Below are positions 16,077 through 21,423 of a DNA stretch of 58,660 nt, one piece after another. The stretch lies in the NCBI RefSeq assembly GCF_000423085.1, contig NZ_AUHH01000026.1:1-58660 (forward strand), written 5' to 3'. Position numbers and translations under genes: made by a program. The notes under the pieces are model-generated. The model had not been told where the DNA came from. It saw nothing but the letters and a program-made list of their open reading frames with translations, and did no database searches. This stretch comes from Granulicoccus phenolivorans DSM 17626 = NBRC 107789 = JCM 15570. Its GTDB lineage: Bacteria; Actinomycetota; Actinomycetes; Propionibacteriales; Propionibacteriaceae. Each line of letters starts with the position of its first letter. Position 1 is the stretch's first letter.

Positions 16077-17132
16077 TCAGGCTATGCCGCTGTGGCCCGG
16101 CGCACCGGGGTTTGCCGGTGTGACTCTGCGCACCAGAGCCCAGAGCCGGGTTGCCGCGTAGCTGCGGTAGGGACTCCAGGAGGCGATGCGGTCGGCGCCG
16201 GCGTGCTCGCCGGTGAGGGCGCGACGCAGGACGGCGTCAGTGCTGGGGAAGGCGTCGGTGTCCGTGCCGGCGCGGATGGCGAGGTGGTCCAGGGTCCAGG
16301 GTCCGATCCCTTGGACGGCGTGCAGTTCCGGCCGCGTCGGCAGGGATTCGCCGTCGCCCTTGGTGGCGAAGAGAACGGCAATCTCGTGCAGGGTGCGGGC
16401 TCGGGTCCGGGTAAGTCCGATCGCGGCACGGAGCCGATCCACTGGTACGGCGGCGAGGGTCTGCGGCGTCGGGAATCTGCGGAGCCCCTGCGCCGGGTGG
16501 CTCGGCCCCGGGTGGTTCGGCGCCGGATGGTGTTGCGCCGAGGGGTGCGGCGCCGGGAGGGTGTGAGCCGAGGGGTTCGGCGCCGGGAGGGTGTGCGCCG
16601 AGGGGTTCGGCGCCGGGATGGTGTGAGTCGAGGGGTTCGGTACCGGGTCCGAGCCGTACGCGGCAACGAGTCGGGCCGCGAACAGCCGGCCGGCGGCCAG
16701 GGTCACCTGCTGGCCGAGCACCGTGAGGATCACTGCTTCGAATGGTGCAGGGAAACGGGTGATCCGAATGCCCGGCCGCGACCGGATGTCCTCGGCGAAC
16801 AACGGGTCCGCGGCCAAGTGGTCGTTGATCGGGCCGAGGTCGGTGTCGAGGTCGAACCAGTGGCGTACGCGTGCGACGATCTCGTGGCGCACACTCTCGT
16901 CGTCGCTCGCACTCCCGTCGTTGGTGGCCGGAGCCAGGGTCACGCCCCCTTCGTCGAGGCGGAGCGATACCAACTGCGCCTGGCCCCGGACCTCGATCCA
17001 GCGCGTCAGCTCCGCCTTCGCACGGTCGAGGCGGATCAGTCCGTCCACCGCATGCGCGGCGAGGGTATCGAGGACCGCCTCGTGGTCGAACGGGCCGTGC
17101 GCGTCGATACGGAACGGTGAGAGGGGCTTCAC
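16077..17132 (-). CDS. alkA: DNA-3-methyladenine glycosylase II (AlkA-like)
   Basis: This enzyme of about 351 residues excises alkylated bases. An AlkA N-terminal beta domain (FRIDAHGPFDHEAVLDTL onward, residues 4-80) precedes the helix-hairpin-helix glycosylase domain. QQVTLAAGRLFAARLV, the HhH loop LHAVQGIGPWTLDHLAIRA and the catalytic Asp in FPSTDAVLRRAL are all present. Between the two glycosylase halves (residues about 161-207) lies a Pro/Ser/His-rich insert made of a 10-residue repeat, unusual for the family. The GTG start at 17132 is the best fit to the domain boundary but lacks a strong ribosome binding site; it overlaps the stop of a 47-codon frame as GTGA. It is at the 3' part of the alkylation-repair operon. 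Confidence 0.88.
   Translation of the reverse strand: MKPLSPFRIDAHGPFDHEAVLDTLAAHAVDGLIRLDRAKAELTRWIEVRGQAQLVSLRLDEGGVTLAPATNDGSASDDESVRHEIVARVRHWFDLDTDLGPINDHLAADPLFAEDIRSRPGIRITRFPAPFEAVILTVLGQQVTLAAGRLFAARLVAAYGSDPVPNPSTHTIPAPNPSAHTLPAPNPSAHTLPAPHPSAQHHPAPNHPGPSHPAQGLRRFPTPQTLAAVPVDRLRAAIGLTRTRARTLHEIAVLFATKGDGESLPTRPELHAVQGIGPWTLDHLAIRAGTDTDAFPSTDAVLRRALTGEHAGADRIASWSPYRSYAATRLWALVRRVTPANPGAPGHSGIA
16511..16650 (-). repeat. In-frame 30-bp repeat inside alkA
   Basis: About 4.7 copies of a 30-bp unit run in register (starts at 16511, 16541, 16571, 16601, 16631). They encode repeats close to PNPSAHTLPA, with degenerate end units and nearly identical central ones. The length is a multiple of three, so the reading frame is preserved. 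Confidence 0.9.
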
Positions 17133-17275: not shown

Positions 17276-17948
17276 TCAGCCGTCCAGGCCGGTGACGCGC
17301 AGGGTGATGTTGATCCGGCCGCTCTCCAGCCCGCAGCCGGCCGGTGCGGTGCCCGGGTAGACCTTCGGGACGCCGTGGTACGCCAACCGGGCCGGCCCGC
17401 CGAAGACGAAGAGGTCGCCCGAAGCGAGGTCGAGGTCCTGGTAGGGCTGGCTCCGGGTCACGGGGTTGCCGAACCGGAAGCGGCAGGTGTCTCCGATCGA
17501 CAGCGATACCACCGGCGCCGGTGACCGTTCGTCCTTGTCCTGATGCAGTCCCATCCGGGCCGTTGCGTCGTAGTGGTTGACCAGGGCCGTGTCGGGGGTG
17601 TAATCGTCTCCCGCGTGCGGGTCGCCGGTCGGCCGCGACGAGCGCCCGGCGGCCGAGGCGGACCATCCAGTCAGGAAAGGCAAGCACCCGGTTGCCGTTC
17701 ACGTCGACGGCCTCGCGGGTGTATTCATAGGGGCGCCAGTGCCAGCCCAGGCAGACCGTGCGTACGCTCATCTCGTGCCCCCGGACCATGGCGGCCCTGA
17801 TCGGGACGGGGCCATTCGCCCACTCGTGAAAGCGAGCGACGAGCCAGCGCTGCTGGTCGAGGGTGAGCCAGCCCGGCACGTAGTACGCCCCCGCGGGCAG
17901 TTCCGGCACGGGCCGCTCGATCATGTCGTCTCCGAACAGCGTGCTCAC
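17276..17948 (-). pseudogene. alkB: AlkB-type 2OG-Fe(II) dioxygenase, 1-nt frameshift
   Basis: AlkB oxidatively reverses 1-methyladenine and 3-methylcytosine. The first part (LFGDDMIERPVPELPAG to FPDWMVRLGRRALVAA) is in one frame. The rest is in another: DPHAGDDYTPDTALVNHYD, iron ligands in MGLHQDKDE, distal His in LAYHGVPKVYPG, RINITLRV. Removing one G near 17631 joins them into a full-length protein of about 223 residues with normal AlkB spacing. It is either a recent inactivating mutation or a sequencing error; both halves are otherwise undamaged. The GTG start at 17948 overlaps the upstream zinc-domain gene stop (GTGA), so it belongs to the operon. Confidence 0.88.
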
Positions 17949-18224: not shown

Positions 18225-18956
18225 TCACGCGGCATCGTGGAAGACCAGCGCCAGAGTGATCCGTTCCCCCGACCGAATCGGGGAGACCCCGTGCCGGACC
18301 GGGGCCGCTGACCAGCCGCGCTTGGAACGCACGGGCCGGTCCCGCGTGGCGAACACAAAGCCGTGTCCCTGCGGCAACAGGAACGCCGACCCCCGCGACT
18401 GCGCCCGGGGACGCTGTTCGACCAGCAGAAACTCCCCGCCGGTGTGATCCACGCCCGGCTGGTTGAGGTTGAGCACCACCTGCAGCGGGAACACCAGATC
18501 GCCGTAGAGGTCACGATGCAGCGCGTTCCAGTCCCCCGCGCCGTACTTGAGCAGGATCGCGGTGGACTTGTTCTGCCCCGCCCGGTGGCACAACTCCAAC
18601 CATTCATCCAGGGTGTCGGGCCAGATCGCTTCACGGCCGAGCTTGCCCCACCAATCACGGGCGATCGGCAACAGACGCGGATACAGGGCCTGCTTGAGGC
18701 GCTCGATCGGCTCCGGGTACGGCGCGTGGAAATACTTGTACTGCCCCTCGCCGAACCGCAGTGGCCCCATGGTGACCGTCTGCCGAAACGCGGCGTCGAC
18801 GTGGTCGAGGTCGCGGATCTCCGCGGCTTCCACTGCCGTGAGCAACTGCGGCAGCAGGGCCCCGCCGAACGCATTGACCTCGTCGGTGATGGACTCCCAG
18901 TCGCCGGAGTTCACGCGCTGGGCGTACCCATCCGGCTCGGTCTTCGCCGCGCTCAT
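18225..18956 (-). CDS. 2OG-Fe(II) oxygenase (COG3826-like)
   Basis: This 243-residue protein has a double-stranded beta-helix oxygenase core with iron ligands H-x-D in WNALHRDLYGD and a distal His in RHGVSPIRSGERITLAL, where the Arg should bind 2-oxoglutarate. KYGAGDWNALHRD and HTGGEFLLVEQRPR are the family landmarks. Homologues of this group often sit beside ogt/ada genes in Actinobacteria and Proteobacteria, so a role in alkylation damage repair is likely, though the substrate is not established. The ATG at 18956 overlaps the ogt stop by 4 bp (ATGA). Confidence 0.85.
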   Translation of the reverse strand: MSAAKTEPDGYAQRVNSGDWESITDEVNAFGGALLPQLLTAVEAAEIRDLDHVDAAFRQTVTMGPLRFGEGQYKYFHAPYPEPIERLKQALYPRLLPIARDWWGKLGREAIWPDTLDEWLELCHRAGQNKSTAILLKYGAGDWNALHRDLYGDLVFPLQVVLNLNQPGVDHTGGEFLLVEQRPRAQSRGSAFLLPQGHGFVFATRDRPVRSKRGWSAAPVRHGVSPIRSGERITLALVFHDAA

Positions 18957-19597
18957 GCCGCCCCCTCCAGGTTCAGCAGGGTCGTCTTCGCGGCCAATCC
19001 GCCGATGTAGCCGCCCAGGCTCCCGTCGGTACGCAGCACCCGATGGCAGGGCACCACCACCGGCAGCGGGTTCGTCGCGCACGCCGTGCCGACCGCTCGC
19101 ACCGCCTTCGGGTTTCCGACGGACTCGGCGACCTCCTTGTAGGACTGGGTGTGCCCATACTCGATATGCGGCAGGTAGCGTTGCACAAGCTGCCGAAACC
19201 CCGAGGACAGCGCATAGTCCAGGGGCACATCGAACGCCTGTCGCCGGCCGGCGAAGTAGGCGTCGAACTCGACGGCAACCGGGTCCAGGCGTCGGGGGGC
19301 CGCCAGGATGCGGGGGCTGATCTTCTGCGCCAGCGACTCCAGCACCGTGTCGAAGTCCTGGCGCTCGTAGGCCACCCGCACCAGGCCCGTCTCGGTCGCG
19401 GCCAGCAGCAACGGCCCGACCGGGGTATCGATCGTGCGGTACGCGATATCCAGCATGCCCCGGTCCGCGGCCAGGGCGGCCAGGCGGTCGTGCAGCGCCG
19501 CCATCGTGGGAGTATCGATCGGGAAAAGGGCGGCCTGCTCGGCTCCCGTGCCGTCATCGATCGCTTGGTCGATCCCGGACGGTGTGATGTCGGTCAT
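18953..19597 (-). CDS. ogt: Methylated-DNA-protein-cysteine methyltransferase 1
   Basis: This 214-residue suicide methyltransferase removes methyl groups from O6-methylguanine onto its Cys184 in PCHRV. The C-terminal domain is complete: YGHTQSYKEVAESVGNPKAVRAVGTAC, then PVVVPCHRVLRTDGSLGGYIGG. An N-terminal extension of about 50 residues (MTDITPSG...) is longer than in minimal Ogt and includes an acidic, alanine-rich helix (LHDRLAALAADRGM). That layout recurs in MGMT proteins encoded next to sigma factors. The ATG at 19597 overlaps the ECF sigma stop (ATGA), so methyltransferase and sigma factor are made in step. Confidence 0.93.
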   Translation of the reverse strand: MTDITPSGIDQAIDDGTGAEQAALFPIDTPTMAALHDRLAALAADRGMLDIAYRTIDTPVGPLLLAATETGLVRVAYERQDFDTVLESLAQKISPRILAAPRRLDPVAVEFDAYFAGRRQAFDVPLDYALSSGFRQLVQRYLPHIEYGHTQSYKEVAESVGNPKAVRAVGTACATNPLPVVVPCHRVLRTDGSLGGYIGGLAAKTTLLNLEGAA

Positions 19598-20097
19598 CGG
19601 GGTGCTCCTTTCGTGTGCTCGCCCGCGTGGTAGGTCTTCCGCAAACTCTTGATGCCGTCGGCTGCGGCCCGGCGTACTGTGGCTGGGCTACCCCCGATGA
19701 TCTCGGCGGTCTCGGCGTGCGGCAGTCCGCCCAGGTAGTGGTAGGCGATCGCGAGCCGCTGCCGCGGCGGCAATGCCGACACCGCCGCCCACACCCCGTA
19801 CTCATCACCACCGGGGTTCCCCACGGTGGCCGGCCGTTCCGGAAGCTCTTCGGTGGGGATCGCCTGCCGAGCACGCACCCTGGTGATGTCGATCGCCTTG
19901 CGGCCGGCGACGCGTACCAGCCATGCCTCGACGTTGGTGTCCTCGGGTAGCTCCGGCCATGACTTCAGTGCGGCCAGGAAGGTCTCCGACCAGGCGTCGT
20001 CGGCGTCCGCGCCGGGCCCGAGCACGGCGCGGCACACCCGCAGCACGGTCTCTCCGTGCCGCCCGACGACCTGTTCGAACGGAAGCTTCATCCTCAT
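19594..20097 (-). CDS. ECF RNA polymerase sigma factor of the alkylation-repair operon
   Basis: This 167-residue sigma-70 family protein has region 2 (FEQVVGRHGETVLRVCRAVLG, DADDAWSETFLAALKSW, EAWLVRVAGRKAID) and region 4 (AVSALPPRQRLAIAYHYLGGLPHAETAEIIGGSPATVRRAAADGIKSLR). No anti-sigma factor gene is adjacent. It is the first gene of an operon with ogt, a 2OG oxygenase, a zinc-domain protein, alkB and alkA, so it probably drives the alkylation response and itself. In-frame starts lie at GTG 20100, ATG 20097 and ATG 20091. The -10-like box at 20106-20111 puts transcription start at about 20099, so a leaderless mRNA starting at 20097 fits best. Confidence 0.88.
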   Translation of the reverse strand: MRMKLPFEQVVGRHGETVLRVCRAVLGPGADADDAWSETFLAALKSWPELPEDTNVEAWLVRVAGRKAIDITRVRARQAIPTEELPERPATVGNPGGDEYGVWAAVSALPPRQRLAIAYHYLGGLPHAETAEIIGGSPATVRRAAADGIKSLRKTYHAGEHTKGAPR

Positions 20098-20105
20098 CAC
20101 ACCGT

Positions 20106-20134
20106 AGACGCACCAGCCGAGCGAAACGTGAGAT
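20106..20134 (-). promoter_or_regulatory. ECF-type promoter of the sigma/ogt operon
   Basis: Reading on the minus strand, ATCTCACGTTTC (20134-20123) is followed by 11 nt and GCGTCT (20111-20106). The same two boxes with the same spacing precede the second ogt gene. The CGTC core is a common ECF -10 element. This suggests autoregulation by the sigma factor. Confidence 0.75.
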
Positions 20135-20141
20135 CCGATTT

Positions 20142-20660
20142 CTAGGACAATGCCGCCGGTGTTGCTGCAACGGGTTCCTCCAGGTCCAGCAGGAACTGCT
20201 TGCGCTCCAGACCGCCGGCGTACCCGGTCAGGGAACCGTCTGCCCCCAGCACCCGATGGCAGGGGATCAGGATGCTGACCGGGTTGCGCCCGACCGCCTG
20301 ACCGACCCGCCGGGCCAGCCGTCGATCACCCAATCGCTCCGCCAGCGCGCCATAGCTGGTGGTCTCGCCGTAGGGGATGTCGCGCAGCAGCGCCCACACC
20401 CGCTCGCAGAACTCGTCGCCCCGGGTCCGGGTGGCCACGTCGAACTCCCGTCGCTCGCCGGCGAGGAAGGCATCCAGTTCGGCCTTCGCTCGCACGAACA
20501 CCTCGTCGGCATCGGCGTCGACGGGTTCGCCGAACACCGCCGCGTCCGGCCGATGCCAATGCTCGGGGAAGTACAGGCCAGTCAGGTCTTCACCCTCGGC
20601 GACCAGGGTCAACTCGCCCAACGCGGTGGCGATCTGGGTATGACGTCGTGCAGTATTCAT
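20142..20660 (-). CDS. ogt: Methylated-DNA-protein-cysteine methyltransferase 2
   Basis: This 172-residue protein is a compact Ogt with methyl-acceptor Cys134 in IPCHRV. It has the DNA-binding helix region IPYGETTSYGALAERLGDRRLARRVGQAVGRNP and the Asn hinge NPVSILIPCHR, characteristic of direct O6-alkylguanine repair. The N-terminal beta domain carries GLYFPEHWHRP. I start at ATG 20660 because AGAGAGG lies upstream; the longer frame to 20705 has no such signal. It ends 41 nt upstream of the sigma factor gene. It has its own copy of the ECF-like promoter, so it forms a separate unit of the same regulon. Confidence 0.93.
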   Translation of the reverse strand: MNTARRHTQIATALGELTLVAEGEDLTGLYFPEHWHRPDAAVFGEPVDADADEVFVRAKAELDAFLAGERREFDVATRTRGDEFCERVWALLRDIPYGETTSYGALAERLGDRRLARRVGQAVGRNPVSILIPCHRVLGADGSLTGYAGGLERKQFLLDLEEPVAATPAALS

Positions 20661-20688
20661 GTCCCTTACCTCTCTGCTCTCACCAGGA

Positions 20689-20717
20689 AGACGCTCGGGG
20701 GTCATGAAACGTGAGAT
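20689..20717 (-). promoter_or_regulatory. ECF-type promoter of ogt2
   Basis: On the minus strand ATCTCACGTTTC (20717-20706), an 11-nt spacer and GCGTCT (20694-20689) repeat the sigma-operon promoter exactly, although the spacers differ completely. Predicted transcription start is near 20682, giving a leader of about 22 nt that includes the ribosome binding site. Confidence 0.75.
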
Positions 20718-20756: not shown

Positions 20757-21176
20757 TCACCGTAGTTCGAGCGTCTCCACCGGTTGCCCCGTGATCGCGG
20801 CGATCAGGTCGAAGTCCTTGTCCACGGCGAGCACCGTCAGTCCGGTCTTCTCCGCTGTCGCCGCGATCAGCAGATCCGGAATCGACGGCGCCCGGTGCTG
20901 ACCACGATCGGCGAGGAGCATCTGCACCTCCCAGGCCCGGTCCTCCATCGCGGGCGTCAGATGCTCCAGCGGCATCAGCGCCAGCGGCGGCCGGCCGAAC
21001 GCCTCGCGCCCGCCCTGCCCCGAGCGAGCCGAGAAGCCCAACTCGAGTCGGGTCACGGTCGACAGCCGAAGCAGACCGCGCTCGATCCGGGCGTTCCACT
21101 CGTCGAGTCGGGCCGCTTGGCCCGACTGCAGGCGTGCGTAGGCCGATTTGTCGACCAACCAACTCGTCAGTGCCAC
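20757..21176 (-). CDS. vapC: VapC-type PIN-domain ribonuclease toxin
   Basis: This 139-residue PIN-domain protein should be a metal-dependent RNase that cleaves RNA when freed from its antitoxin. Acidic metal ligands are visible in [12 protein letters not shown] (Asp9), VTRLELGFS (Glu), [26 protein letters not shown] (several Asp). The length and order fit VapC. The GTG start at 21176 overlaps the 3' end of the antitoxin gene by 10 bp, a usual arrangement for coupled toxin-antitoxin pairs. The target RNA is unknown. Confidence 0.92.
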
Positions 21177-21397
21177 GCGGCATCCATCACCGCGGGGTCG
21201 GCCAGATCGCCGAACGTAGCCGCCGACCGCTGCCAGTCCGCCTCGGTCACGCTCACTTCCGGCGACGGGGACGTGGCAGCCTCCCCCTCGAGTTTGCGGC
21301 GCAGGTACTCGTTGCGGGACAGCCCCAGTGCGGCCGCCTCGGCGTCGATCCGCTGCACCGTGGCTTCACTGAGTCCGCGTACCAGAATGTTGGTCAT
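21167..21397 (-). CDS. vapB: VapB-type ribbon-helix-helix antitoxin
   Basis: This 76-residue antitoxin has an N-terminal ribbon-helix-helix ([20 protein letters not shown] then [13 protein letters not shown]) that binds its own promoter and a disordered acidic C-terminus ([21 protein letters not shown]) that should wrap the toxin. A GAGGGGG ribosome binding site precedes the ATG, and immediately upstream is a perfect palindrome likely to be its operator. The pair sits between ogt2 and a GlxA-type regulator. Confidence 0.9.
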
Positions 21398-21409
21398 GAC
21401 TACCCCCTC

Positions 21410-21423
21410 GATATCATGATATC
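21410..21423. promoter_or_regulatory. VapB operator palindrome
   Basis: GATATCATGATATC is a perfect 14-bp palindrome 12 bp upstream of the vapB ATG and abutting its ribosome binding site. Ribbon-helix-helix antitoxins bind such short AT-rich palindromes for autoregulation. Confidence 0.7.

Follow-up and report, generated by a model that had tools for sequence, protein, structure and literature searches.

The window, meaning the whole stretch of 58,660 nucleotides that was analysed, carries on its minus strand a gene for a sigma factor of 168 amino acids (19594..20100), followed downstream by DNA-repair genes. The protein matched PF04542 and PF08281, as well as TIGR02937 above its cut-off, with region 4 ending at about residue 155; having regions sigma2 and sigma4 only, this short sigma is an ECF sigma factor. 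It also harbors a conserved DADDAWSETF stretch, which we equated with the DAED motif. The adjacent gene (18953..19597, minus strand) encodes Ogt1, an O6-methylguanine-DNA methyltransferase of 214 amino acids that matched PF01035 and PF02870, has the fold and the PCHR active site of Ogt/MGMT proteins, with Cys184 as acceptor, and overlaps the sigma stop codon by ATGA. On the same strand follow a 2OG-Fe(II) oxygenase of family PF09859 (Oxygenase-NA; 18225..18956, start assigned by reading the sequence), a small protein with an Ada metal-binding domain, AdaZn (Pfam match to PF02805; 17945..18217), alkB (17276..17948) and an alkA-like DNA-3-methyladenine glycosylase with AlkA_N and HhH-GPD domains (16077..17132). 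The alkB frame is interrupted at about 17629-17640 and relatives match the two frames on either side, the break being either a sequencing error or real. The alkA-like gene contains, at 16500-16650 between its two domains, a repetitive Pro-Ser-His-Ala insert of PNPSAHTLPA-like units. As read from the sequence, four-base overlaps join sigma to ogt1, ogt1 to the oxygenase and AdaZn to alkB. The first-pass annotation had described a sigma/ogt operon; sigma and ogt1 indeed adjoin, but this unit was drawn too small, as it extends through sigma-ogt1-oxygenase-AdaZn-alkB-alkA.

A second methyltransferase gene, ogt2 (20142..20660, minus strand), encodes about 172 amino acids and does not have the helical extension found in Ogt1. 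Its start was assigned by reading the sequence to the ATG at 20660, behind GAGAGG. A longer ORF of 187 amino acids starts at 20705, but since it opens within the spacer of the promoter described below, the ATG at 20660 is likely the real start. Beside ogt2 lies a PIN-domain gene, weakly VapC-like (20757-21423 region), preceded by a small gene (21397-21167) whose match to FitA-like antitoxins fell just below the cut-off, and the palindrome GATATCATGATATC is found next to this pair at 21410-21423. No recognised anti-sigma gene was detected among the nine window proteins scanned, the neighbourhoods of relatives having been checked for the window's own proteins only.

Two predicted promoter elements stand before these loci. 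The promoter of the sigma-ogt1 operon (20106..20134, minus strand) consists of the -35 box ATCTCACGTTTC at 20134-20123 and the -10 box GCGTCT at 20111-20106, and that of ogt2 (20689..20717, minus strand) has its -35 box at 20717-20706 and its -10 box at 20694-20689. Both elements thus read ATCTCACGTTTC-N11-GCGTCT exactly, as previously annotated, with different spacers and at a distance of 583 bases. The two boxes with a gap of 9 to 13 nt matched exactly twice in the window and never in 100 dinucleotide shuffles, and in the 4.1-Mb assembly TCTCACGTTTC-N10..12-GCGTC matched at these two places only. Judged from the distance between the -10 box and the start, the transcript of sigma is predicted to begin at position 20100 on the minus strand, at or adjoining the GTG codon, which would make it leaderless.

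The element recurred in relatives, sampled as the best 80 of 328 confirmed sigma relatives and coming from many actinobacterial genera. TCAC-N16..18-CGWCT preceded sigma in 63 of these best 80 loci, with N17 in all 63, and the conserved core was A-Y-CTCAC-R-TT ... CGWCT in the TCAC-N17-CGWCT geometry. A weight matrix was built from these 63 sigma-upstream sites; since no Ogt2 site was used for training, the Ogt2 sites provide independent evidence. At a score of 16, the matrix found 103 matches in the 80 loci, training sites included, versus 1 in shuffled sequence. At a score of 12, the element stood directly before sigma in 68 of the best 80 loci. An upstream Ogt2-type gene was present in 31 loci and had the element in front of it in 30, a 32nd Ogt2 locus (L059) holding only weak Ogt2 pieces under the limit used for the 31. 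The spacing was N17 in 96 of the 98 sigma and Ogt2 sites, other spacings being scanned at a penalty. Only two loci had the element at neither place, namely, L005, where a site lies 120 nt upstream, and L065, where the contig ends, and none of the 80 reversed upstream windows contained a matrix site. In 64 of 66 loci, the first in-frame sigma start codon followed the -10 box at a distance of 5 to 8 nt, with exactly 5 nt in 41 loci, so that the sigma mRNA is probably leaderless, in line with the earlier claim that the predicted start puts this mRNA at its start codon. Two near-identical elements 583 bases apart could also have arisen by chance or by a recent, functionless duplication of a promoter segment, but the empty shuffles, the divergent spacers and the recurrence of the element in many genera at a fixed spacing leave this explanation with a negligible probability. 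A chance origin of the sites was in fact rejected, given their conservation before the same genes across relatives.

The element also followed the presence of sigma across genomes. Among 246 genomes of the class, 32 encoded sigma (E up to 1e-25) and 26 contained the strict motif, which occurred in 15 of the 32 sigma-positive but in only 11 of the 214 sigma-negative genomes (Fisher 5e-9, relatedness ignored); a reversed control pattern gave 8 matches in the 246 genomes. In the sigma-positive genomes, 15 of the 18 strict matches lay within about 750 bp of sigma, and a scatter over random genomic positions, which the first-pass annotation had put forward as refuting its proposal, was thus not seen. 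Of the others, one lies 1.08 Mb from sigma (G083, L135) and 7 nt before a gene of the same family as the operon oxygenase, one (L134) precedes a long ECF sigma, and for one (L133) no ORF was found by the rule used. When 31 sigma loci (L102-L132) were scanned, 28 had a matrix match of at least 12, and in 23 of these a site precedes sigma or an Ogt2-type gene; the divergent sigma-Ogt pairs L130-L132 had no matrix site. In L121, L123, L124, L125 and L127, the sole site lies behind ogt1, before an SDR gene, and in L017 an SDR gene (3919-3203) stands behind a divergent site of this promoter type. Short-chain dehydrogenase (SDR) genes may be an unexpected regulon member in two settings, as judged from Pfam runs on L017 and L121 only. 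Matrix sites were also seen before a MerR-type regulator gene (L046 7830) and a flavin-reductase-type gene (L076 1652), single cases that may be due to chance. Among the 37 nearest relatives, six had the strict motif; it stood beside this sigma in G000, G002, G003 and G017, while G026 and G029, both with weak matrix scores, had no operon gene within 4 kb of it.

A looser pattern, CTCACRT-N15-CGWCT, matched three times in the 4.1-Mb assembly. The third match (G000 C12:69270; L101 3271-3297) precedes a gene with an NAD(P)H-binding domain. Divergent to this gene is one for an ECF sigma whose C-terminal part is long and matched SnoaL_2 weakly, below the cut-off. This site resembles the published ECF41 element, TGTCACA-n16-CGTC (Wecke 2012, PMC3426412), suggesting a possible overlap in form between the promoters of the two sigma groups. 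The window sites could accordingly belong to an ECF41-type sigma encoded elsewhere in the genome: the TCAC-N17-CGTC geometry is identical, from the TCAC of the -35 box to the CGTC of the -10 box, this genome encodes the candidate just mentioned with a similar site beside it, and the long sigma behind the L134 site resembles that candidate. On the other hand, the sites track the presence of the short sigma and its operon, and their -35 box reads YCTCAC-R-TT, not TGTCACA. We thus consider an ECF41-type reader very improbable. ECF41 elements likewise stand at the sigma and a neighbour gene, but ECF41 sigmas differ in having a large C-terminal extension with a SnoaL-like domain, which is absent from the 168-amino-acid window sigma.

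Taken together, comparison of sequences from many genomes establishes where the sites occur, how they are spaced, which genes follow them and that they are tied to sigma. From this, we infer that the sigma encoded at 20100-19594 reads these promoters and that alkylation is the signal. The two window sites are very probably its target promoters, and the genes behind them would constitute a positively autoregulated alkylation-repair regulon. The first-pass annotation had suggested such an autoregulated sigma driving both repair loci, and the counts before sigma and before Ogt2-type genes, the N17 spacing and the rarity of the strict motif in sigma-negative genomes all support this. It had not proposed what governs sigma and had not placed the factor in a known group such as ECF122. 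Counting against the proposed regulon are the five loci whose sole site lies behind ogt1, the lack of a matrix site in L130-L132, and the motif-positive genomes G026 and G029, which had no operon gene nearby.

We then considered which gene of the operon might control sigma. Among the window operon proteins, only Ogt1 adjoins sigma throughout the sample, being directly downstream on the same strand in all of the best 80 of 328 relatives. The two genes overlapped by four bases (ATGA/GTGA) in 70 of these 80 loci and by other lengths in the remaining 10, as determined by a rule that takes the first ogt1 start in the stretch beginning 20 bases ahead of the sigma stop and hence favours starts near that stop. 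In further genomes, the four-base overlap was present in 27 of 32 sigma-ogt1 pairs, and in L128 and L137 the piece analysed contained no ogt1. The other genes were less constant: the oxygenase and AdaZn were each found downstream on the sigma strand in 13, alkB in 20 and alkA in 7 of the best 80 loci, of which five hold less than 3.4 kb behind the sigma start. AdaZn was set aside as a general sensor because of this low count. Two loci showed other arrangements. In L106 (3060-4247), unlike in the overlapping pairs, sigma and ogt1 share one frame with one stop between them, and L146 has, at 1152-2263, the gene of another ECF sigma overlapping one for an Ogt-type protein whose N-terminal part is long, which may be a second case of sigma-Ogt pairing, independent of the first.

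About 50 residues precede the methyltransferase domain of Ogt1. Codons 17-45 (19463..19549, minus strand) are predicted to form two helices, 17-24 and 29-45, which we propose as an element that may contact sigma. The AlphaFold2 model of Ogt1 alone (49 sequences) had a mean pLDDT of 92.7, the block means in the helix region ranging from 62 to 91, and a fold search with this model returned 39 matches (E up to 0.001), all of them Ogt or alkyltransferase-like structures. Natural Ogt chains in the PDB matched the Ogt1 profile only from position 36-40 or later, while some engineered fusion chains matched from 9-35, which we took to be partner or linker sequence. Equivalents of residues L35, L39 and A43 were chosen from the window and the 80 loci; with 28 loci added, all 109 sigma-coupled Ogts retained these residues and Cys184, a count that omits four divergent sigma-Ogt pairs (L130, L131, L132 and L145). 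Across 394 genomes, 54 encoded Ogt1 (E up to 1e-42), and these included every one of the 48 that encoded sigma (E up to 1e-25). In the six Ogt1 genomes without sigma, the helix was absent from G081, G237, G252 and G388 and kept in G113 and G147. The extension was thus present in 109 of 109 sigma-coupled versus 2 of 6 sigma-less Ogts (Fisher 2e-6, ignoring relatedness and with small numbers). G113 has kept ogt2-ogt1 with the -35 box changed to CTCGC, and we read a short piece beside its ogt1 as a probable remnant of sigma. As judged from these alignments, the N-terminal helical extension appears to be a newly described feature of sigma-coupled Ogts.

These observations led us to a tentative model of the switch. 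The sigma factor would transcribe its own operon, sigma-ogt1-oxygenase-AdaZn-alkB-alkA, probably as a leaderless mRNA, and would also transcribe ogt2. As sigma keeps the acidic core-binding stretch, a brake would be needed against a self-sustaining loop, and we propose Ogt1 for this role because it is the only window protein found beside sigma everywhere and is itself a methyl acceptor. Coupled to sigma in translation and equipped with the helical N-terminal extension, unmethylated Ogt1 would hold the ECF sigma through its N-terminal helices, and methyl transfer from DNA to Cys184 would alter Ogt1 and free sigma. Ogt1 as a suicide-repair anti-sigma factor, released by its own methylation at Cys184, is a possibility to which we give somewhat less than an even chance.

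Ogt1 might instead be merely a target gene, with sigma activity set by its amount, through another regulator or proteolysis, and with an extension that serves Ogt itself. A coevolution test, which lent the brake model no support, is in line with this, as the partial distance correlation between extension and sigma was 0.165 and did not exceed the values obtained with Ogt core blocks (0.10-0.40), and so is G147, where the extension is retained without a close sigma. Against it stand the adjacency of Ogt1 and sigma in all 80 loci, overlapping in each by the start rule used, and the loss of the extension in four of the six sigma-less relatives, which make this explanation rather doubtful. Alternatively, methylated Ogt1, or a protein of the Ada metal-binding type, could help sigma and RNA polymerase to initiate, in an Ada-like co-activation. 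The same sigma-ogt1 linkage and coupling would then be expected, the second-best NCBIfam match of Ogt1, although below the cut-off, is the Ogt half of Ada, and an Ada metal-binding protein is encoded in the window operon. AdaZn is, however, missing downstream of sigma in most loci, as counted above, and since sigma keeps its acidic region-2 stretch, there is no obvious need for an activator. We therefore regard co-activation as unlikely.

The sharing of a conserved promoter by a sigma and DNA-repair genes suggests a self-amplifying switch for alkylation repair in this actinobacterium, with alkylation possibly sensed by the repair protein encoded right beside sigma. Should Ogt1 prove to be the brake, an enzyme of DNA repair would itself serve as the anti-sigma factor, and alkylation sensing in actinobacteria would differ from that by Ada. 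The adaptive response would then be an Ada-like switch made from two overlapping genes, in which spent repair capacity is the signal.

Ada of Escherichia coli is a single protein that becomes a DNA-binding activator, and its regulon contains a methyltransferase, alkA and alkB. The window resembles this system in comprising a methyltransferase, alkA and alkB, and in that the methyl acceptor is the regulator or adjoins it, but differs in that an ECF sigma would provide the transcription function, the methyl acceptors being separate proteins. Ogt of Mycobacterium tuberculosis (4bhb, 4wx9) has the same fold as the Ogt1 model and is among its closest solved structures, and its profile match starts at position 40 of 203, behind the Ogt1 extension. 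As for the sigma itself, the classification that defines the ECF groups reportedly goes back to Casas-Pastor 2021. A methyltransferase conserved beside sigma in 80 of 80 loci (best 80 of 328) points to ECF122, a group of ECF sigmas beside which a gene for 6-O-methylguanine DNA methyltransferase is conserved (PMC8999054). We assign the window sigma to ECF122 by this neighbourhood, in comparison with the description in PMC8999054 only, from which, in the part available, no difference was found. That 2022 review lists ECF122 among the groups without a cognate anti-sigma factor, with a mechanism yet uncharacterised, and describes ECF43 sigmas, which lack the DAED motif, as requiring phosphorylation. 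In our literature search, ECF122 was named in PMC8999054 only, no title dealt with an alkyltransferase as an anti-sigma factor, and the accessible parts of PMC7397307 and PMC2587704 held nothing on the subject. To the published picture of an ECF122-type locus, the present analysis would thus add a promoter, a probable leaderless start, a wider repair operon and a putative Ogt extension. With its conserved promoter, its compact regulon and an Ogt extension linked to sigma, the locus makes the control of ECF122 testable.
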